Part shown: positions 7,073-30,591 of the stretch, piece by piece | Layout: each line of letters begins with the position of its first letter | Position numbering within the stretch: position 1 is the stretch's first letter | NCBI GenBank assembly: GCA_951812585.1 | Contig: OX638318.1 | Coordinates: forward strand, 834,819-898,818 | Source: Rhodothermales bacterium | GTDB taxonomy: Bacteria; Bacteroidota; Rhodothermia; Rhodothermales; Bin80 | Length of the DNA stretch: 64,000 nucleotides | Direction: 5' to 3' | Notes under the pieces: model-generated | Seen by the model: the letters and a program-made list of their open reading frames with translations, nothing else | The model's database searches: none | What the model was told of the DNA's origin: nothing | Program-made: the position numbers and the translations under genes

Positions 7073-8803
7073 ATGCCTGACTATCCCACAATTCCTGCTA
7101 TTGTCGCGCATGGCTTGGACAAGAACCAGGACATTGCGTGTTCCACGAAGCGTGGCGGAGAATGGATCGCCACTTCGGCCGCGGCATTCCAGAAGCAGAC
7201 CAGCGACTTTGCCCGCGGCCTGTATGCACTAGGAATACGCAAGGGCGACCGCATAGCGCTGCATGCCGAAAACAGCACCGAATGGTTGATTGTGGATCAG
7301 GCCGCGCTGAGCCTCGGGGCGGTGACCGTGCCGATTTACACCACGCAGCCCGGGGACCAGATCCGTTACATTGTGGACAATGCGGGTGCACGCCTGTATA
7401 TCGTATCGACTCAAGCACTGTTTGATGCATGCCCGCCAGACTTGAAAACAGTGCCATCCCTGGAGTATGTCATCGGAATCTTCGGCCCGTTCGGAGACCT
7501 TTCATACGCCGATGTCCTTGCACGCGGCCAGGGTGCGCTTGACTTCGTGCCGCCCGAGGTAACAAGCGACGACCTCGCAACACTCGTGTACACCTCCGGC
7601 ACCACCGGTGTGCCTAAGGGCGTCATGCTGTCGCACGGCAACATTACCTCCAACATGCTCGCTGTCGCAGAGTGTTTGCCGTTTACGCCGCCAATCACGG
7701 CGCTTTCGTATCTGCCGCTGTCTCACTGCTTCGAGCGCATAGCCAGCATCGCGTACCTGTACCTTGGCTGCCCAATCTACTTTGTGGAAGACTTTCTGGA
7801 GATCAAAGATGATATCCAGACGGTGCGTCCGCACCACATGACGACCGTGCCACGCCTGCTTGAAAAGGTGCATGCGGGACTGAATCAGCTTGCAAAGTCC
7901 ACCAAGGGCCTGAAGGGCGCGCTCCTGCGCTGGGCTATGCGGCTGGCCGAAGCCTATGATGTGGAAGCAGGCAAAGGACCTGCCGGACACGGACTGGCCG
8001 AGAAGCTGGTCTACAAGAAGATCCGCGAGAATTTTGGCGGCAACCTGCGCTATTTCACGTCCGGCGGTGCTGCCCTTTCGCCGGCTATCCAGGCGTTCTT
8101 CAATGGACTGGGCATCATGTGCGGCCAAGGCTACGGACTTACCGAAACGTCACCGGTCATCACATGTTATACGCGAGACAACATCAGACCGCGCTCTGTA
8201 GGAACCTGTATCCGGGATGTGGAGGTCAAAATTGCCGACGACGGGGAAATTCTGGCACGAGGCCCCAACATCATGCAAGGCTACTACAAGATGCCAGAGA
8301 AGACCGCGGCGGTTATCACAAAAGATGGCTGGTTTCACACAGGCGACATCGGCCACCTGGACTCGGATGGCCACCTCTACATCACCGACCGCAAGAAGCA
8401 GCTGTTCAAGCTGTCTACCGGCAAGTACATCGCGCCGACACCCATTGAAATCAGCTTATGCAACAGCCCGCTAATTGAGCAGGCTGTCGTCTTGGGGCCT
8501 GGACGCAGGTACTGTTCGGCGCTGATCACTGTGGATGCTGCAGCGCTGGCCAAGGAAACGGGTCCGGCCGATTCGGATTCGATTCATCCCAAGGTCATAG
8601 CACGGATTCAAGCTATTGTGGACGGCGTCAATGAAAGCCTGCCGCCTTGGGAGCAGGTTAAGAAATTCTGCATCCTCGAAGCTCCGTTCAGCATTGAGGC
8701 GGGCGAGCTTACGCCTACCATGAAGGTGAAGCGCACCGTAGTGCAAGAGAAGTACCACGAGCAAATAGAGAGGCTGTACGCCGCGCCCCAGAAGGCATCT
8801 TAA
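7073..8803 (+). CDS. Long-chain acyl-CoA synthetase (AMP-forming)
   Basis: Activates fatty acids to acyl-CoA through an acyl-adenylate; a cytosolic or membrane-peripheral ANL-superfamily enzyme of the FAA1/long-chain group. The P-loop-like YTSGTTGVPKGVMLSHGN motif, the GYGLTETSPV motif and the WFHTGDIGHLD and TDRKKQLFKLSTGKYI hinge motifs are all present. The ATG at 7073 gives a 576-residue protein. A TTG nine codons upstream (7046) is also open but less convincing, whereas GAAAG lies a suitable distance before 7073. The gene is divergent from moaC and followed by pckA after 168 bases. Together with the thiolase at 54 kb it points to fatty-acid turnover. Substrate chain length cannot be read from the sequence. 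Confidence 0.9.
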   Translation: MPDYPTIPAIVAHGLDKNQDIACSTKRGGEWIATSAAAFQKQTSDFARGLYALGIRKGDRIALHAENSTEWLIVDQAALSLGAVTVPIYTTQPGDQIRYIVDNAGARLYIVSTQALFDACPPDLKTVPSLEYVIGIFGPFGDLSYADVLARGQGALDFVPPEVTSDDLATLVYTSGTTGVPKGVMLSHGNITSNMLAVAECLPFTPPITALSYLPLSHCFERIASIAYLYLGCPIYFVEDFLEIKDDIQTVRPHHMTTVPRLLEKVHAGLNQLAKSTKGLKGALLRWAMRLAEAYDVEAGKGPAGHGLAEKLVYKKIRENFGGNLRYFTSGGAALSPAIQAFFNGLGIMCGQGYGLTETSPVITCYTRDNIRPRSVGTCIRDVEVKIADDGEILARGPNIMQGYYKMPEKTAAVITKDGWFHTGDIGHLDSDGHLYITDRKKQLFKLSTGKYIAPTPIEISLCNSPLIEQAVVLGPGRRYCSALITVDAAALAKETGPADSDSIHPKVIARIQAIVDGVNESLPPWEQVKKFCILEAPFSIEAGELTPTMKVKRTVVQEKYHEQIERLYAAPQKAS

Positions 8804-23171: not shown

Positions 23172-23447
23172 TCAATACATGGAATAATCGTTGATTGCTT
23201 CGACTTTCCGGATGTGCGGGACCGCGTGCATGAGCGCCTGTTCGATGCCTGCGCGAAGTGTCATGGTGCTCATCGGGCAGGAACCGCAGGCACCCAGCAG
23301 CTCCAACTCCACCACCATGTCCCGCGTAATCTTGCGCAAACGGACCGAGCCGCCATCTGCTTGGAGGTACGGACGGATGGAGTCGAGCCCGTCCTCTATC
23401 TGCTTGCGCAACGCTTCGTCCACGTTTGGATCGTACGCGTCTTCCAT
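23172..23447 (-). CDS. NifU C-terminal domain Fe-S scaffold protein
   Basis: A 91-residue NifU-like (NFU) protein that carries or transfers iron-sulfur clusters. The cluster-binding CxxC lies in LLGACGSCPMSTMTLRAGIE, preceded by IRPYLQADGGSVRL, both typical of the family. It starts 6 bases after the stop of the Mrp ATPase gene, an arrangement that supports a shared role in Fe-S cluster delivery. Confidence 0.92.
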   Translation of the reverse strand: MEDAYDPNVDEALRKQIEDGLDSIRPYLQADGGSVRLRKITRDMVVELELLGACGSCPMSTMTLRAGIEQALMHAVPHIRKVEAINDYSMY

Positions 23448-23453
23448 AGCATG

Positions 23454-24521
23454 CTAACGGTATTCTATCTCCGGCAACACAGTTGCGGCTTGGCCAGCGA
23501 CCGCGAAGACTATATGCTCAGCTGCAGCAGCGAATGCGCGTGCAGAAGCACATTCGGGCGCAGCGACCACGATGGGCACGCCCTCATCACCCGCACGCCT
23601 GAGGCGCTGCTCCAGCGGCACCTCGCCCAAAAACGGCACGCCGCTGGATTTCGCCAGCTTGCGCGCCCCACCTTGGCCGAAAAGATAATACTTTCTGTCG
23701 GGTAAGTCAGGCGGTGAGAAGAATGCCATATTCTCAATGACGCCGAGCACCGGCACGTTCACCTGTTCAAACATGGCGATGCCCTTGCGCGCGTCGGCTA
23801 GCGCTACGCGCTGCGGCGTAGAAACGATGACGGCACCGGTAAGCGACACCGTCTGGACGATGGTCAGCTGAATGTCGCCGGTACCCGGCGGCAGATCCAG
23901 CACCAGGAAGTCCAACGTTCCCCACTCTGCATCGCCCAGAAATTGACGCACCGCACTTGAAACCATAGGCCCGCGCCAGATAACCGCATTGGAGGGATCC
24001 ACCAAAAGACCCATGGACAGCAGTCGTACCCCGTGCTTCTCCAGAGGAATGATCTTGCGTGCCTTGTTGACGCGCGGCCGTTCGTTCTCCACGCCGAACA
24101 TCGTAGGCACGCTCGGGCCGTAGATGTCGGTATCGACCAAGCCGGTCCTGAATCCACGCAGTGCAAGCGCCGCCGCAAGGTTTACTGCAACCGTGCTCTT
24201 GCCAACCCCGCCCTTGCCCGATGCCACCGCGATCAGGTGGTTTGCGCCTGGTCTGATGGGTACCTTGCCGCGCCTGATTCCGACTATGTTGACCTGTACT
24301 TGCGTATCATCCCCATGCTTTGCTTGGATCACGGCACGACATCGGTCTGCAACGCGCTGCGCAAACGGGCTGCCAGGGTTGTCTACGCTTACTGTAAATG
24401 CGGCCCGATTCCCCTTGACGTCCAGATCTTGCACCCGGCCTAAGCGCACTATATCAGTCTTCCGGTCCGGGTCGACAATAGCGGTGAGTGCGCTCAGTAC
24501 CGATTTGCGTGTCATAGGCAC
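23454..24521 (-). CDS. mrp: Mrp/ApbC/NBP35-type Fe-S carrier ATPase
   Basis: P-loop ATPase that binds and transfers Fe-S clusters to apoproteins. The 355-residue protein has an amino-terminal MIP18/DUF59 domain (about 1-85), then the deviant Walker A in VASGKGGVGKSTVAVNLAAA, the GLVDTDIYGPSVPTMFG switch and the LDFLVLDLPPGTGDIQLT Walker B region. The usual CxxC near the end is not obvious, as in some homologues. It begins 15 bases after the Ppx/GppA-like gene and is followed by nifU. Confidence 0.92.
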   Translation of the reverse strand: MPMTRKSVLSALTAIVDPDRKTDIVRLGRVQDLDVKGNRAAFTVSVDNPGSPFAQRVADRCRAVIQAKHGDDTQVQVNIVGIRRGKVPIRPGANHLIAVASGKGGVGKSTVAVNLAAALALRGFRTGLVDTDIYGPSVPTMFGVENERPRVNKARKIIPLEKHGVRLLSMGLLVDPSNAVIWRGPMVSSAVRQFLGDAEWGTLDFLVLDLPPGTGDIQLTIVQTVSLTGAVIVSTPQRVALADARKGIAMFEQVNVPVLGVIENMAFFSPPDLPDRKYYLFGQGGARKLAKSSGVPFLGEVPLEQRLRRAGDEGVPIVVAAPECASARAFAAAAEHIVFAVAGQAATVLPEIEYR

Positions 24522-24536: not shown

Positions 24537-25538
24537 TTACAGACCTTGTGCAACTACGCTTGTTCCCCTCTTCTCTGCATAGCGCAGTGCGATCCCGTGT
24601 CTGAGGTCCCAGGGGCTTACCGTCGTCTCTTCGGATCCGAACCGCTGCATCACCTCGTCCAGAATCAGCACCGCACCAGGAAACACATCGCTGCGACCCG
24701 CCATGTGGCGCGTGTTCAAGGCCAGTACTTCGGACTGCGTCATCCCCATGAGTCGCGTGCGCCATCTGCGAACAGTCTGCGCAGAGAGCGTCGGAAGGGC
24801 AGCCATACCGGCGTCGCCATATTCCAGAAGCGCCAGGAGCCGCTGTGTCAAAGAAGCACCAATCAGCAGGGTCGGTGGCTGTACTCGAACACTTCCAAGC
24901 TCGCTCCGGACCCATGCCGCAGCGCGTGCCGCTTCGAACGGGGCGGGGGGCTGCTCCGAAAAATATCGCTCCGTTATCCTGACCGAGCCAATGTTCAGGC
25001 TTTGCCGCAAAAGGCTACCGCGTACGCTTTCCACAATTTCGGTGGAGCCGCCCCCAATGTCCAGCGTTACGGTGTTCCGGGCTGCGCCATCCTGCGTTGC
25101 GGCTGCCAATGCCGGCAAGCAGGCCGTGGCACCTCGGAAGCTCCACTCCGCTTCTTTCGCTCCAGAAATGATCGTGTAGTCCAGCCCTGTTTCCGACTTG
25201 ACCCACGCAATCATATCGGACGGGTTCCGGATATCTCTCGAAGCGCTGGTACCAATGGCGATGCAGTCTCGCGCACCTAGCCGCTCGTATTCGTCACGAA
25301 ACGCGATGAGCGCATCGCGCAGCCGATGCAGTGCTCCTTCCGCAAACTCCCGGTGGGCATCCACCCCTTCCCCCAGCCGGACCATGCGCACCTCATCCTT
25401 CACGACTCGGAGTCTGCCCGCGCCTTCCACATCCGCCACCAGCATCTTGGCCGCGTTCGTTCCTACATCAATAACAGCAATGCGAATAGCGCCGTGGGAT
25501 TGGTCCCAATGGGTAGCCTGCCCGAAGCACGGCCGCAT
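24537..25538 (-). CDS. Ppx/GppA family exopolyphosphatase-like protein
   Basis: Member of the Ppx/GppA phosphatase family (polyphosphate or pppGpp hydrolysis) in the actin/ASKHA fold. The phosphate-1 loop IAVIDVGTNAAKML sits near residues 18-31, and the phosphate-2 loop VTLDIGGGSTEIVE in the middle. The domain fits about 315-333 residues, the length of the short Ppx/GppA forms. The open frame extends upstream into the previous gene. The ATG at 25538 is the nearest good start, adding some 17 residues before the conserved core, and lies 23 bases after the upstream stop. It is the second gene of a four-gene operon with mrp and nifU. Confidence 0.87.
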   Translation of the reverse strand: MRPCFGQATHWDQSHGAIRIAVIDVGTNAAKMLVADVEGAGRLRVVKDEVRMVRLGEGVDAHREFAEGALHRLRDALIAFRDEYERLGARDCIAIGTSASRDIRNPSDMIAWVKSETGLDYTIISGAKEAEWSFRGATACLPALAAATQDGAARNTVTLDIGGGSTEIVESVRGSLLRQSLNIGSVRITERYFSEQPPAPFEAARAAAWVRSELGSVRVQPPTLLIGASLTQRLLALLEYGDAGMAALPTLSAQTVRRWRTRLMGMTQSEVLALNTRHMAGRSDVFPGAVLILDEVMQRFGSEETTVSPWDLRHGIALRYAEKRGTSVVAQGL

Positions 25539-25561: not shown

Positions 25562-27343
25562 CTACTGATCCATCCACACGGCGATGCCCCACTGGCCCGG
25601 GTGGTCCGGGACCTCTGCCCCAAAGTCGCCGTAGTGATGCGTTCCATCCGTCACGAACCTGAGCACGTACTCGCCCGCATCGAGGCTGACAAAGCCGCTG
25701 AACAACCGGTTTTCGTCTCCTCCTCCCGCCGCCACTGTGTTGTACCGGGTCATCTCCCATACGGGCTGATCGTCGCCTGTACGCTTCAGCATGCCATAGT
25801 CGAAGCGGGTACTCGTGGAAATTTCTCCTACAGCCCTGATGCGAATCCGCGTAGGCTGGCTAACAGCAAACCGTACTTCTCGTTCCTCGTGCGCTTCCAG
25901 GCGCGTCCAGTTGATGGTGGCGGCCGCTTCGCTCAGTGCGTTGCTGAACAAATCCTGGCCTCGGCCTTCGCGCGCCTGACCAAGGGGCAGTCCTTGCGCC
26001 GCATCGCCCATGCCGTCGCTGATAGCGAACGCACCCGTCGGCAGCGTGCGCGACACAGGAAACATCGCGATGCCCCAGCGCTCTGGATTATCCGGTGCCT
26101 CCGCATTCCACGAATCCCAGGCATGCGAGTCGTCCGTGATATACTCCAAGGCGTACGTCCCTGGCTCCAAGTACAGGAACTCTGATTTGTAGAGGTTCTT
26201 ATACGACCCGCCGGCGTGCAACAAGTCGCCCGGAGCCAGCTTCCAGACCAACTCTTCCCGGCCCTGGTGGATTCTTGTCAACTGCCCGTAATCGTAAGCC
26301 GTTCCATAATTCCCGGTGACTTCCCCTACAGAATAGAGCACGACACCCAATGGCTGGCCTACCCGGAAATGCTGCTTGAGATGCTCATCGTTGCCTACGC
26401 GCGCAAAGCTGAGTAGCGGCTGGCGCGTCTGCCACGGATCAAAGGGTAGAATGGCATCTGAGTCTTCGACTGCAATGGAGATGCCCCATGCGCTCGGATC
26501 ATACGGTGGATTGCCGACCCATAGGCCATAAGCATGCGACCGGTTCGTTTCTGCGAACGCGCGATAGATACCGGGCACTAGGTTGATTCTGCCTGTGAAC
26601 CGCCGGTTGGACGCAGCGCCCCCCGCCGGTTCTGAGTTTTGTAACGCAAAAAACCAGACGCGCGTCCTCTCCTGCACGTGCTCAATCCAGTAATGATCCC
26701 GCGGTTCATGCCCGGATGCCGTACTGATTTCTCCGGTTGCCGACACCGCGATGTCAGTCGGTCGCAAGACCTCAAAGGCGAATTCGCGGTGTTCATTATC
26801 CCCCAGCATGGTCGCCTCCCACAAAAGCGGCGTGTTTGAAGCCTTTGGGGGCAAAAAGTCCAGCCGGCGTGCGTTGTCATTCTTGTCTGCTGTGCGCAAC
26901 ACGAACCGCAGCGACGACAGTGATCGATTGTCCAGCCGAGCCCGAGGAATGCGCTGGTCTGCGCGAAGACCATAGGTAGCGTAAAAGACCTCGTACAGGC
27001 CAGCCCCTAGTATAAACGTGTCGGCCTTGATGTGGCGCAGTGACCCGGCACCGGCGCTGAGGCGCTGCGCTTGCATGTCCCAGACGATTTTCCCGTTGTC
27101 GAAATCGCGAATCCACGCGGTCGCCGCAAGTCCCGAAGCCCCTTCACGCGTGTCCACCAGGCCTGTAGCGTCTACGACCAGACGCGTCGTAGCATCAAGC
27201 TCAAACGCGGACGATTCCAGTGCAGCCCGTTCCAGGTCTGCAAAGACGACCAGTCCTCTAGGCTGGGGCGGGCCTACAACAATGCGGAGAGCAACGAGTC
27301 CGGCAAAAACAATTACTACCGTATGCAGCGATTTACGTGCCAT
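25562..27343 (-). CDS. Exported protein with four repeats of an unrecognised domain
   Basis: No family recognised. From the ATG at 27343 (593 residues) the protein opens with a signal-anchor or signal peptide (MARKSLHTVVIVFAGLVAL). A GTG at 27388 would add 15 residues. It then contains four related blocks of about 100-130 residues. Each has an ..RxxAxGEISTxx or related strand, a VWxM/VWKL strand, a [S/A]AGxG/HAGG turn, and LxxGxYxxxxxTD. Three of them end in an acidic/aromatic loop plus WGI (DPSAWGISI, NPERWGIAM, HPGQWGIAV). This suggests tandem beta-sandwich domains facing the periplasm or cell surface. It is the first gene of the operon with ppx/gppA, mrp and nifU, but a shared function is not evident. 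Confidence 0.72.
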   Translation of the reverse strand: MARKSLHTVVIVFAGLVALRIVVGPPQPRGLVVFADLERAALESSAFELDATTRLVVDATGLVDTREGASGLAATAWIRDFDNGKIVWDMQAQRLSAGAGSLRHIKADTFILGAGLYEVFYATYGLRADQRIPRARLDNRSLSSLRFVLRTADKNDNARRLDFLPPKASNTPLLWEATMLGDNEHREFAFEVLRPTDIAVSATGEISTASGHEPRDHYWIEHVQERTRVWFFALQNSEPAGGAASNRRFTGRINLVPGIYRAFAETNRSHAYGLWVGNPPYDPSAWGISIAVEDSDAILPFDPWQTRQPLLSFARVGNDEHLKQHFRVGQPLGVVLYSVGEVTGNYGTAYDYGQLTRIHQGREELVWKLAPGDLLHAGGSYKNLYKSEFLYLEPGTYALEYITDDSHAWDSWNAEAPDNPERWGIAMFPVSRTLPTGAFAISDGMGDAAQGLPLGQAREGRGQDLFSNALSEAAATINWTRLEAHEEREVRFAVSQPTRIRIRAVGEISTSTRFDYGMLKRTGDDQPVWEMTRYNTVAAGGGDENRLFSGFVSLDAGEYVLRFVTDGTHHYGDFGAEVPDHPGQWGIAVWMDQ

Positions 27344-27388
27344 CTCCAGCGAGCCTTGTGATCGTTGTGATGTACGCAAAAGGTACAC

Positions 27389-27549
27389 AAGATGTTACGC
27401 AAAGCGCCTTCCTCGCGAGCAAACCGCTCCGTGCGAACACGCGGCCTCGCACGAGGCCGCAGCTCCGTGCGAGCGCGTAACTGCGTAACCGCGTAACATT
27501 GTAGCCTATTTTAGAGTAATATCCCTCATCAAATGATCGTCTGGGAGCA
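27389..27549. promoter_or_regulatory. Repeat-rich divergent regulatory region
   Basis: Between the repeat protein (-) and the second SpoIIE gene (+). It holds GCGTAAC three times with 8-base period (27475-27481, 27483-27489, 27491-27497), an inverted copy GTTACGC at 27394-27400, two copies of GCTCCGTGCGA, and a stem-loop GCGGCCTC-GCAC-GAGGCCGC at 27441-27460. Repeats of this type commonly bind a regulator; which one is unknown. Confidence 0.5.
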
Positions 27550-29709
27550 TTGCAGCACGTCAGTCTACGCGGCCTGTTAGCGCTGATTCGCAGCCGGTTG
27601 CAGCGTGGCGTACTGACTGCAGTGTTCGTCGTTGCCTGCCTGGCCTGCAGCGCGTACGTCGTCTTTGCCAAGGGGCTGGGGGATCATCCTACACTGGTTC
27701 TGGCGATTCTGTACCAGGTTCTGGTGTTCGGATGCTATGGGGCACTGTGGCTGCTCATGGAACAGGTGTTTTGCAAAGACCAGCCATCTCCATCCCAGGC
27801 CTTTTGGCACCTTGTTGTGGCCGCAGCGGTTGCTTCCGCCATCTTTGTTGCGGTCGTAACAATCATCCCCGGTGGCTTCAACGATGACGGAGAGCCGCTC
27901 GCTATCTCTACGGTAGCCCAGTCTGCGCTTATTGCTCCAGCATTCTTTGGCTTTGCTGTGCTGCTCTTACTCCGATTCCGTGAGTTGCTGCTGCACCGGC
28001 GTACCCGTGCTGCCATTCGGTCGTGGCGTCTTATGCTCATAGCGCTGATTGTCAATGCCGGCGCTTCGGGCCTTTTTGGCGTATTTCCGGAGAGCGTGCT
28101 GAATGAGCCGGTGCGGATTATCACCGGTCTGGTTCTGCTTGTTTTCATCGCAATCAATGTGTTTCGCGTATCGTGGGTCGTCCGGCTGTCTGCCGGCAGA
28201 AAGGGGTTGACCATTCTCATGGCTTTGCTGGTGATGCTGTTCAGTGCACTGCTTATTGTCTCACCTTCCAACGACCTACAGGCGGTAGATGCATTCGGAT
28301 TCGGCTTCGGAGTACCCGCTGCGTTCCTTTCCACCTACAACGCGGGATTGCATGCGTTTGCGGTCGGTGCAGGCAGATTCGGCATCATCTATTGCCTGAC
28401 CTCCATTCTGTCGCTGCTGTTCCACTTGCCTACGACCAGTGATTACCGCCGGAGAGAAGGTGAGATGGCAGCGATCTACTCGCTGACCGACCTGGTCAAG
28501 GAGGTCTTTGACTTGGACAAACTCGTACGGACGATCGTGAGCTCTTCCGTAAATGCACACTCCGCGACTTCGGCGTGGCTGACCGTGCCGGATCCTGAAT
28601 CGGGACTTTTGCGCCCGCAGATGGTGGCGGCGCATAATATTCAGCGTAGCGTTGTGGAGAGCAAAGTCAACTCGGAAGCACTCTATGATGATGCCGCCAG
28701 CGCCCAGGAAACGCTCTACTTGAAGTACGCGCGGTCCGATCACCGTGTGCGGGCGCGTCCTGGAGACAGCATCGAGAGTTTGCTCATTGTGCCGCTGGCC
28801 GCACACCAATCCGTACTCGGCGTGCTGTTTGTGGCCAAGGACATAGCCCGCGGCTTCAACGGCGAGGATATTCAGTCCATCAATGCCTTTGCCGCGCAGG
28901 CCGCCCTCGCGCTGGACAACGCCCGTCTGTTCGAGCGGCAGATTGAACGCGAGCGACTAGCACGTGAGCTTGCTATCGCCCGGGATGTGCAACAACGCCT
29001 TTTGCCCCAGCGATTGCCGACCTGCCCGCACCTGGACATAGCCGTGCTCAGCGCGCCGGCGCAGGAGGTTGGCGGGGACTACTACGACTTCGTCCAACTA
29101 GACGATGAACGCCTAGCCTTTATCGTGGGCGATGTTTCCGGCAAAGGTACTTCTGCAGCATTCTACATGGCAGGCATGCAGGGGGTTTTTCGCTCGCTGA
29201 CCCGCATTACGCCGAACCCGCTTGAGTTCCTCGTGCGCGCAAACCGCGTACTCAGTGAGTCTATGGAGCGCAACGTGTTCATCTCTGTCATCTACGGCAT
29301 CGTGGATCGTCAGAAACAGCAAATCGCACTTGCACGCGCAGGGCACTGTCCTGCCATTTTGGCCCGAAGGAACGAACCCGCAGCTTTCCTACGCTCCCAA
29401 GGGCCGGGTATTGGGCTGTTCCGGGGCGCGGATTTTCCCGAACTTGTTGAAGTGAAGAGTGTCTCCATGGTGCCAGGCGATATAATGGTGTTCTACACCG
29501 ATGGCCTGGTGGAAAGCCGTAACGCCAGCGGCGACGAGTACGGCTACAAACGGCTTCTGGCCTCTGTGGAACGGCTGCGCCACGAGGACGCTGCCACCAT
29601 TCACAAGGCGCTCTTGGACGATCTGCAGCAGTTCATGGGGAGTAGCAGTCGCTACGACGACGACATGACACTGCTGGTCTTCCGGTGGCGCAAGGCGACA
29701 CAGGCTTGA
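27550..29709 (+). CDS. Multi-pass membrane protein with GAF and SpoIIE-type PP2C phosphatase domains
   Basis: Second partner-switching phosphatase. The 719-residue protein has seven or eight hydrophobic segments in its first 290 residues (a 7TM-like sensor), a GAF-like domain (about 315-470, with SLLIVPLAAHQSVLGVLFVA), a linker helix and the phosphatase (about 490-715) containing LPTCPHLDIAVLSAPAQEVG, VGGDYYDF, FIVGDVSGKGTSAAFYMAG, VFYTDGLVESRNASGDEYG and RYDDDMTLLVF. The start is a TTG at 27550 just behind GGGAG; no nearby in-frame ATG exists, so it is uncertain. A STAS gene and an RsbW-like gene follow. Confidence 0.87.
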   Translation: MQHVSLRGLLALIRSRLQRGVLTAVFVVACLACSAYVVFAKGLGDHPTLVLAILYQVLVFGCYGALWLLMEQVFCKDQPSPSQAFWHLVVAAAVASAIFVAVVTIIPGGFNDDGEPLAISTVAQSALIAPAFFGFAVLLLLRFRELLLHRRTRAAIRSWRLMLIALIVNAGASGLFGVFPESVLNEPVRIITGLVLLVFIAINVFRVSWVVRLSAGRKGLTILMALLVMLFSALLIVSPSNDLQAVDAFGFGFGVPAAFLSTYNAGLHAFAVGAGRFGIIYCLTSILSLLFHLPTTSDYRRREGEMAAIYSLTDLVKEVFDLDKLVRTIVSSSVNAHSATSAWLTVPDPESGLLRPQMVAAHNIQRSVVESKVNSEALYDDAASAQETLYLKYARSDHRVRARPGDSIESLLIVPLAAHQSVLGVLFVAKDIARGFNGEDIQSINAFAAQAALALDNARLFERQIERERLARELAIARDVQQRLLPQRLPTCPHLDIAVLSAPAQEVGGDYYDFVQLDDERLAFIVGDVSGKGTSAAFYMAGMQGVFRSLTRITPNPLEFLVRANRVLSESMERNVFISVIYGIVDRQKQQIALARAGHCPAILARRNEPAAFLRSQGPGIGLFRGADFPELVEVKSVSMVPGDIMVFYTDGLVESRNASGDEYGYKRLLASVERLRHEDAATIHKALLDDLQQFMGSSSRYDDDMTLLVFRWRKATQA

Positions 29710-29777: not shown

Positions 29778-30152
29778 ATGAGTAATTTTTCTGTAGCCTT
29801 TCACGGTCGTGACAACGTGATGGTGCTGGCACTGAAGGGTGAATTAGACGCGCACACCGCCACGGAGCTTGAAGAGGCCATTGAGAAATGTAAGACAGAT
29901 CAGGCATTTCGAATTGTCATTGACGGCACGCTGCTGGCCTACATCTCCAGCGCGGGACTTGGCGTATTCATGGCCTTTATTGAGGAGATCCGGGCGGAAG
30001 AGGGCGACATCAAAATCGCCTCCCTGCAGCCCCGGGTTTACAACGTGTTTGATCTACTCGGCTTTCCGCTGCTTTTTGACATCGTTGACACAGTTGACGA
30101 GGCCGTGCAGCGCTTTGCCGCGGGGTCAGCAACGAGCGAACAAGGGGTCTAA
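29778..30152 (+). CDS. STAS domain anti-sigma factor antagonist (second copy)
   Basis: A 124-residue STAS protein with GELDAHTATELEEAIEKC and IDGTLLAYISSAGLGVFMAF, where Ser57/Ser58 is the expected phosphoacceptor. It follows the membrane phosphatase by 68 bases and precedes the RsbW-like kinase by 4 bases. It resembles the STAS protein at 18.8 kb in fold and motif only; the two sequences are clearly different, so cross-talk cannot be assumed. Confidence 0.9.
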   Translation: MSNFSVAFHGRDNVMVLALKGELDAHTATELEEAIEKCKTDQAFRIVIDGTLLAYISSAGLGVFMAFIEEIRAEEGDIKIASLQPRVYNVFDLLGFPLLFDIVDTVDEAVQRFAAGSATSEQGV

Positions 30153-30156
30153 CTCG

Positions 30157-30591
30157 GTGTCCCACCTCGTGAAGTCTGCCACCTATACCCTTGCGGTGCC
30201 CAGCTCCATGCGCTATCTGCAAATGGTGCGCCGTTTTGTGGTGCAGCACGCCACTATGGCGCAGTTTCCGGAAGATGCGGTGGAAGCTTTTGAGTTGGCG
30301 GTGGACGAGGCCTGCACCAACGTAATCGAGCATGCCTACGAGGGCCGGCCCGGCCACTGGGTCGATATCACGATCACGGTCGACCCTACTCGCTTTACCG
30401 TGCGCATTTGCGACGATGGCAAGCCGTTTGACCTTGCTTCCTATACCGAGCCGGATGTCCCGGCATTAACGCAGCAGCGGCAAGGCGGCGGACTAGGCGT
30501 CCACATCATTCGCCGCCTCATGGATCAGGTTGAATACCGGAAGCGGGATGGCCGAAACGAGATTTGCTTGGTCATGTACCGCGCACAGTAA
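30157..30591 (+). CDS. RsbW-like anti-sigma factor / serine kinase (second copy)
   Basis: HATPase_c_2 kinase of the partner-switching type, 144 residues from the GTG at 30157. The open frame runs further upstream inside the STAS gene, but the GTG lies 9 bases behind a GGGG site and right after the STAS stop, which fits coupled translation. The N-box is FELAVDEACTNVIEHAYEG and the G2 box GGGLGVHIIRRLMDQ. Gene order here is phosphatase-antagonist-kinase, whereas the module at 15.7-19.1 kb is phosphatase-kinase-antagonist. Confidence 0.88.
   Translation: MSHLVKSATYTLAVPSSMRYLQMVRRFVVQHATMAQFPEDAVEAFELAVDEACTNVIEHAYEGRPGHWVDITITVDPTRFTVRICDDGKPFDLASYTEPDVPALTQQRQGGGLGVHIIRRLMDQVEYRKRDGRNEICLVMYRAQ

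Follow-up and report, generated by a model that had tools for sequence, protein, structure and literature searches.

A four-copy repeat protein of probable CUB/PPC-like fold as a candidate periplasmic input to a SpoIIE partner switch in Rhodothermales

Introduction

CUB domains have conserved disulfides. As described in PMC4222235, Asp53 is indispensable for calcium in the first CUB domain of C1s, where a lysine of the ligand is contacted by Glu45, Asp98 and Ser100. In the partner switch described in PMC8256260, SpoIIE acts on the STAS antagonist SpoIIAA, which, once dephosphorylated, binds the anti-sigma factor SpoIIAB.

The present study concerns a repeat protein encoded in a 64,000-nucleotide stretch of DNA from a Rhodothermales bacterium (hereafter the window, meaning the whole stretch analysed), beside genes of such a switch. 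To our knowledge, the signals to which the membrane SpoIIE phosphatases of Rhodothermales respond are not known. In the open-licence literature searched, we found no paper on the domain repeated here, on a repeat protein beside SpoIIE, or on a periplasmic repeat sensor subunit.

Results and Discussion

A protein of four domain copies, the first degenerate

The reading frame confirmed the extent of the gene given in an earlier note on this DNA, with 593 codons, the ATG at 27343 and the stop codon at 25564-25562 on the minus strand. The features of the gene are as follows.

25562..27343, minus strand: repeat protein gene, 593 aa (reading frame; relatives found)
27275..27340, minus strand: N-terminal membrane helix, aa 2-23 (AlphaFold2 helix and hydropathy)
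26894..27262, minus strand: copy D1, aa 28-150, degenerate (fold core retained, polar site gone)
26453..26827, minus strand: copy D2, aa 173-297 (E205, D216, N246 and H270 present; N267 replaces D)
26042..26419, minus strand: copy D3, aa 309-434 (E341, D351, N383, D404, S406, H407)
25565..25927, minus strand: copy D4, aa 473-593 (E507, D515, N545, D566, T568, H569)

The architecture is a membrane helix followed by four copies of about 120 aa, of which copy 1 is degenerate. A repeat profile built from the copies of relatives only (79 rows, none from the window) recovered all four in the window protein, at aa 29-131 with 32.5 bits (D1), 171-294 with 118.6 bits (D2), 307-431 with 111.9 bits (D3) and 473-593 with 128.1 bits (D4). 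The top score of this profile on 1000 shuffled proteins was 5.4 bits, and chance repeats were rejected on this comparison. In pairwise comparison, D2, D3 and D4 shared from 31/110 to 40/114 identical residues, with z values of 17 to 36 (500 shuffles); for D1, z was 6.3 against D2, 3.6 against D3 and 4.0 against D4. Since the best of 500 shuffles exceeded the real score of D1 against D3 (43 versus 42) and equalled it against D4 (47 in both cases), D1 is supported as a copy by the profile and not by pairwise scores. The four tandem copies of the earlier note are therefore upheld by the profile, but the degeneration of the first had gone unmentioned there.

The motifs that the note had assigned to all four blocks proved less uniform: the GEIST strand is literal in D2 and D4, but reads GEVTG in D3 and ATGLVDT in D1, and the TD motif is found in D3 and D4 only, D2 having TN. 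The WGI ending occurs in three copies (D2, D3 and D4), as had been seen.

Concerning the location of the protein, the N-terminal helix has no evident cleavage site by reading, so that a membrane-anchored, periplasmic protein is likelier than a released one; a signal anchor at aa 2-23 with the copies in the periplasm is the more likely arrangement, and the helix supports the earlier description of an exported protein in the sense of exported or anchored. By simple hydropathy, 68 of the 72 distinct repeat proteins carry an N-terminal hydrophobic stretch. The window protein is free of cysteine over its 593 aa and, by Pfam, of a Reg_prop propeller, a Y_Y_Y domain or an output domain.

A predicted beta-sandwich outside the described families

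When the whole protein and 82 copies were searched against Pfam and NCBIfam, no family scored above its curated cut-off, so the domain remains unrecognised as first reported; the profile match that would have placed the repeats in a described family did not turn up. The best Pfam match of the whole protein was AMPK1_CBM at 16.6 bits, where the cut-off is 26.8. The AMPK glycogen-binding domain was rejected because this score lies under the cut-off.

With the CUB model (PF00431), the window protein had no match at E up to 10, and the 82 copies had none at E up to 0.1. When 118 sampled genomes of the phylum were searched with this model, five gave matches, all of them from outside this order. The alignment of the repeat profile with six bacterial CUBs by hhalign gave a probability of 1.6% over 21 columns, six sequences making this a weak test. 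At the level of sequence, CUB membership is not supported. Pfam PPC also gave no match in the window protein or the 82 copies, and sequence searches of the PDB returned only a beta-lactamase chain at E 0.36 for the single protein and no match for the profile.

The structure of one repeat, D4, was predicted alone by AlphaFold2 with the 82 aligned copies and gave a beta-sandwich with a pLDDT of 95.2; the model of the full protein had a pLDDT of 86.1, with weak stretches at 126-136 and 445-474. With this predicted domain as query, VIA-align placed the CUB domain 5fws at the top (Z 8.9, 2.4 A, 92 aligned), followed by C1s CUB1 (1nzi_B; Z 8.8, 2.5 A, 96 aligned), and a PPC domain, 5sv5, tied with them (Z 8.7, 3.0 A, 91 aligned); most rows at Z 8.0-8.9 were CUB domains. 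The best Z usually obtained without a clear match is 7 to 8, so 8.9 is barely higher. Foldseek gave nothing at E <= 0.001 for the domain against the PDB, and its search of viral models likewise gave nothing at E <= 0.001. The full protein yielded 14 matches at E <= 0.001, neuropilin-2 first (3.1e-6), with TM-scores near 0.15. The two-domain structural matches to cubilin, neuropilin and DeCLIC were set aside, as their rmsd exceeded 12 A. Since VIA-align ranks CUB first, PPC ties and Foldseek is weak, the predicted fold is likely a CUB/PPC-like beta-sandwich.

An array of carbohydrate-binding modules, CBM48-like or PPC-like, might be proposed from the sub-threshold AMPK1_CBM match and from the Foldseek domain search, whose top rows were headed by PPC and CBM6 (E about 1e-3) and also held GOLD domains and influenza hemagglutinin heads. 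We regard this as very improbable, because among the copies AMPK1_CBM (PF16561) matched only 1 of 82, at E 0.079, and the ten scanned neighbours in the window include no glycan-degrading gene, bar an AmiA-like amidase gene further off.

A conserved polar site in the intact copies

The candidate binding site comprises, in D4 numbering, E35, D43, N73, D94-x-S/T96 and H97. Its conservation was counted in 72 distinct repeat proteins and 23 receptors (described below) from chosen loci, the one-copy L056 and L065 being excluded from both sets; the sequences are related, so that the counts are not independent. Among the 206 intact copies, E35 is present in 186, D43 in 205, N73 in 200, D94 in 191 and H97 in 188, and each of the five is present in 23/23 receptor copies. 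The third copy carries all five (E, D, N, D, H) in 72/72 proteins, and the second has E35 in 52/72 and D94 in 59/72. In the window protein, the site is complete in D3 and D4, and position 94 of D2 is N. When E35 was compared with D94 by a Fisher test, p was 1.4e-8, again with related and hence non-independent sequences.

The first copy has E35 in 0/72, D43 in 9/72, N73 in 1/72 and D94 in 1/72, this last count partly reflecting gaps, because the alignment of copy 1 frequently stops before D94. Its tryptophans W46 (71/72) and W57 (72/72) are kept although the polar residues are lost, which indicates that the binding site is distinct from the fold core. This loss may have been a single old event.

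Compared by order along the chain, the site follows C1s CUB1, with E ... D ... D-x-S/T in the same sequence order, and the E45-D53 spacing of C1s (8 residues) equals that of E35-D43 in window D4. The spacing is 8 in 92/206 intact copies, D4 included, and mostly 7, 9, 10 or 11 in the others. Judged from these residues, the most likely function of the polar site in the intact copies is to bind a cation, which is probably Ca2+, and, by way of this cation, a ligand.

Distribution and copy number

Within the family and order, relatives of the repeat protein were found in 76 of 99 genomes (the window's own genome counted), and in the phylum in 67/395 sampled genomes; they were absent from all 19 genomes of family f14, possibly Salinibacteraceae, within the 99. 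Relatives are present in named records, including those of Rhodothermus sp., Roseithermus sacchariphilus and two Calditrichota. No relative was found by tblastn in plasmid and phage records, or by a first single-protein scan of genome contigs. With 67/395 genomes of the phylum, two Calditrichota and no Pfam or NCBIfam match above cut-off, the domain merits a family entry of its own.

Of the 72 distinct proteins, 59 have four copies and 12 have three, and a single one has six. The three-copy proteins lack the fourth copy, and 11 of the 12 come from the window's family (G001, G003 and genus g6), the twelfth being L123. One three-copy locus of the window's own genus (L067) has no adjoining ppx match and has mrp 299 nt downstream, as if D4 and ppx had been lost together. 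The biggest array found is the six-copy protein, 856 aa, of a Calditrichia relative (L131, 5983-8553).

This variable copy number would also fit an envelope-structural or adhesive protein with no part in signalling, whose copies bind glycan or protein at the surface, perhaps with the help of a cation, and next to which the switch lies only by synteny. The structural matches to CUB, PPC and collagen-binding domains agree with this, since they are binding modules. Against it, a third-copy site intact in every protein is more like one specific ligand, and the protein appears, from its helix and hydropathy, to be anchored in the inner membrane and not to lie at the surface. Together with the evidence from neighbouring genes and receptors given below, we judge the adhesive role to be unlikely, while leaving it an appreciable share of probability.

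The ppx-mrp-nifU side of the locus

Downstream of the repeat gene lie the three operon partners named in the earlier note, which domain matches confirmed.

24537..25538, minus strand: ppx/gppA, start ATG 25538 by reading (Ppx-GppA 6.7e-43)
23454..24521, minus strand: mrp, Fe-S carrier ATPase (domain match)
23172..23447, minus strand: nifU-like gene (domain match)

The gaps of 23 nt (repeat gene to ppx), 15 nt (ppx to mrp) and 6 nt (mrp to nifU) suggest a single transcript, and a partner of Ppx, Mrp and NifU in phosphate or Fe-S homeostasis could be imagined accordingly. Within the order, 26 neighbourhoods (L067-L092) were fetched, of which 21 have an mrp match downstream and 17 a ppx match, and in genome G022 (L086) the repeat gene stays beside ppx, mrp and nifU while the SpoIIE match lies elsewhere. 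However, Ppx, Mrp and NifU are cytoplasmic housekeeping proteins and the repeats are most likely outside; the ppx match is absent in 9/26, one of them clipped by a contig end; and no ppx, mrp or nifU match was found in the fetched flanks of 14 loci of other classes (L093-L106). Further, in the Rhodothermus-like L083, the repeat gene is separated from ppx by prmA (7795-8712; PrmA 3e-56), so housekeeping genes of unrelated kinds are mixed in this block. Genes at this place in other loci share the same weak UbiE match, and the window has no such gene. With cytoplasmic partners that have no match in the fetched loci of other classes, we rejected Fe-S/polyphosphate metabolism, to which the earlier note had tied the protein, as the main explanation, and we consider such a role improbable.

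The SpoIIE-STAS-RsbW side of the locus

On the other side, the window carries a divergent gene set of the partner-switching kind, which the earlier note had not included, as it had also not included the degenerate copy 1 or the occurrence of the domain inside signalling receptors.

27344..27549, no strand: intergenic region separating the divergent repeat and SpoIIE genes (coordinates)
27550..29709, plus strand: membrane SpoIIE phosphatase, GAF and SpoIIE PP2C (SpoIIE 8.5e-44, GAF_2 1.1e-10)
29778..30152, plus strand: STAS anti-sigma-factor antagonist (STAS 4.9e-18)
30208..30591, plus strand: RsbW-like kinase, start uncertain, perhaps further upstream (HATPase_c_2 6.2e-32)

The SpoIIE phosphatase has about 8 hydrophobic segments within its first 283 aa by hydropathy. 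Its gene is divergent and adjacent in 66 of the 76 genomes with the repeat gene, four of these (G007, G009, G034 and G088) resting on a contig-end piece of the repeat gene. The other 10 comprise two contig breaks (G020 and G082), four genomes with SpoIIE elsewhere, the two genes being apart (G022, G018, G032 and G042), and four with no strong match. Of the 26 neighbourhoods L067-L092, 23 have SpoIIE upstream.

The association is not obligate, since either gene has been lost alone in some genomes. At the same syntenic place, the repeat gene has been lost from L142, L144 and L148, where the SpoIIE set persists, and SpoIIE has been lost from L147, L125 and L126, where the repeat gene, STAS and RsbW persist. 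These independent losses are consistent with an adhesive protein and mean that the protein could serve another purpose in part of the order. As the whole block is syntenic across the order, adjacency is weak evidence of function.

The divergent intergenic region contains three direct repeats at an 8-nt step, CGCGTAAC-like, at 27474-27505, which are possibly a regulator site or drift; a promoter and terminator scan gave fewer sites than in shuffles. In four loci of the window's family (L073, L077, L084 and L127), a second set of STAS and RsbW matches lies beyond amt on the downstream side, and it includes SpoIIE in L073 and L084.

In the 14 loci of other classes, no common neighbour set was found and the repeat gene has no SpoIIE gene directly beside it; a SpoIIE gene lies 2.8 kb away in L093 and 3.4 kb away in L096. 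In one of the 14, L097 (5807-7471), the divergent adjacent gene encodes a cNMP-GAF-HisKA-HATPase_c kinase. Three of the loci, L097 (9387-10823), L105 (9411-10811) and L106 (9662-11080), have similar genes of about 470 aa after the repeat gene, and that of L105 matches Omp85 at 47.8 bits (cut-off 24). The Omp85-family gene of L105 and its counterparts in L097 and L106, amid otherwise unshared neighbours, would again suit an envelope-structural or adhesive protein.

The same domain inside propeller receptors

Single copies of the domain were identified in 23 receptor proteins of other families. Of these, 18 are complete, at 1248-1322 aa, and five are clipped by locus ends; the domain sits at about residue 515-680, except in the front-clipped L052. 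Pfam identified Reg_prop and Y_Y_Y together with SpoIIE or HisKA/HATPase_c in all six complete receptors that were scanned. By comparison with two Pfam-scanned outputs, the outputs of the 23 were typed as SpoIIE in 17 and histidine kinase in 4, with 2 cut short. The receptors were drawn from 20 selected regions, so their number is at least 23. Tandem paralogues of propeller-SpoIIE receptors, with one domain copy each, were observed four in a row in L054 (2-15001) and as a pair in L061 (2855-10459).

The presence of single copies of the same domain in proteins with signalling outputs argues against a purely adhesive role. Because the domain occurs in single-chain SpoIIE and kinase receptors, we think it most likely that input from the repeat protein would reach the neighbouring SpoIIE.

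Proposed role

Our preferred interpretation, held tentatively and with somewhat less than even confidence, is that the protein is an inner-membrane-anchored, periplasmic array of CUB-like domains, probably cation-dependent, that senses a ligand and feeds the divergent SpoIIE switch. The location of the copies, the cation, the ligand and any contact with SpoIIE are parts of this sensing model that we infer. In this mechanism, the intact copies would bind a cation, probably Ca2+, plus a ligand outside the inner membrane, and the occupancy signal would reach the divergently encoded membrane SpoIIE phosphatase. The phosphatase would then dephosphorylate the STAS antagonist, which may draw the RsbW-like kinase away from its target by partner switching. 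An anchored protein beside SpoIIE, built from a receptor domain, would thus represent a candidate input, with a putative site, for a Rhodothermales SpoIIE phosphatase.

A wider proposal would make the domain a new cation-gated sensing module that Bacteroidota-type and Calditrichota bacteria employ both inside propeller receptors with a SpoIIE or kinase output of their own and as a separate tandem array, the latter being the trans-acting periplasmic half of a split SpoIIE receptor in control of a partner switch. This is more speculative, and we hold it to be rather unlikely in this full form.

Comparison with known systems

Among the described systems, CUB domains (PF00431; C1s, neuropilin and cubilin) are beta-sandwiches comparable in size to the one predicted for the repeat domain. 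The repeat domain, however, has signatures of its own (AGGxxxNR, H97 and WGI), and the disulfides of CUB domains are absent from the cysteine-free window protein, although several of the bacterial CUBs compared are also without cysteine pairs. PPC domains are bacterial extracellular beta-sandwiches, but the window copies are unattached to a protease and have no Pfam match to PPC.

Concerning the output side, the SpoIIE/RsbU-STAS-RsbW partner switches are matched by the window neighbours, which supply PP2C SpoIIE, STAS and HATPase_c_2 genes together, whereas a periplasmic repeat protein as a possible sensor subunit is unreported in the open-licence papers found. The Reg_prop/Y_Y_Y receptors with a SpoIIE or HisKA-HATPase output hold one copy of the repeat domain, in contrast to the window protein, in which copies are arrayed in tandem behind a membrane anchor. 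The repeat protein is an uncatalogued and widely conserved protein that varies on known extracellular sensing or binding domains, and not a new kind of system.
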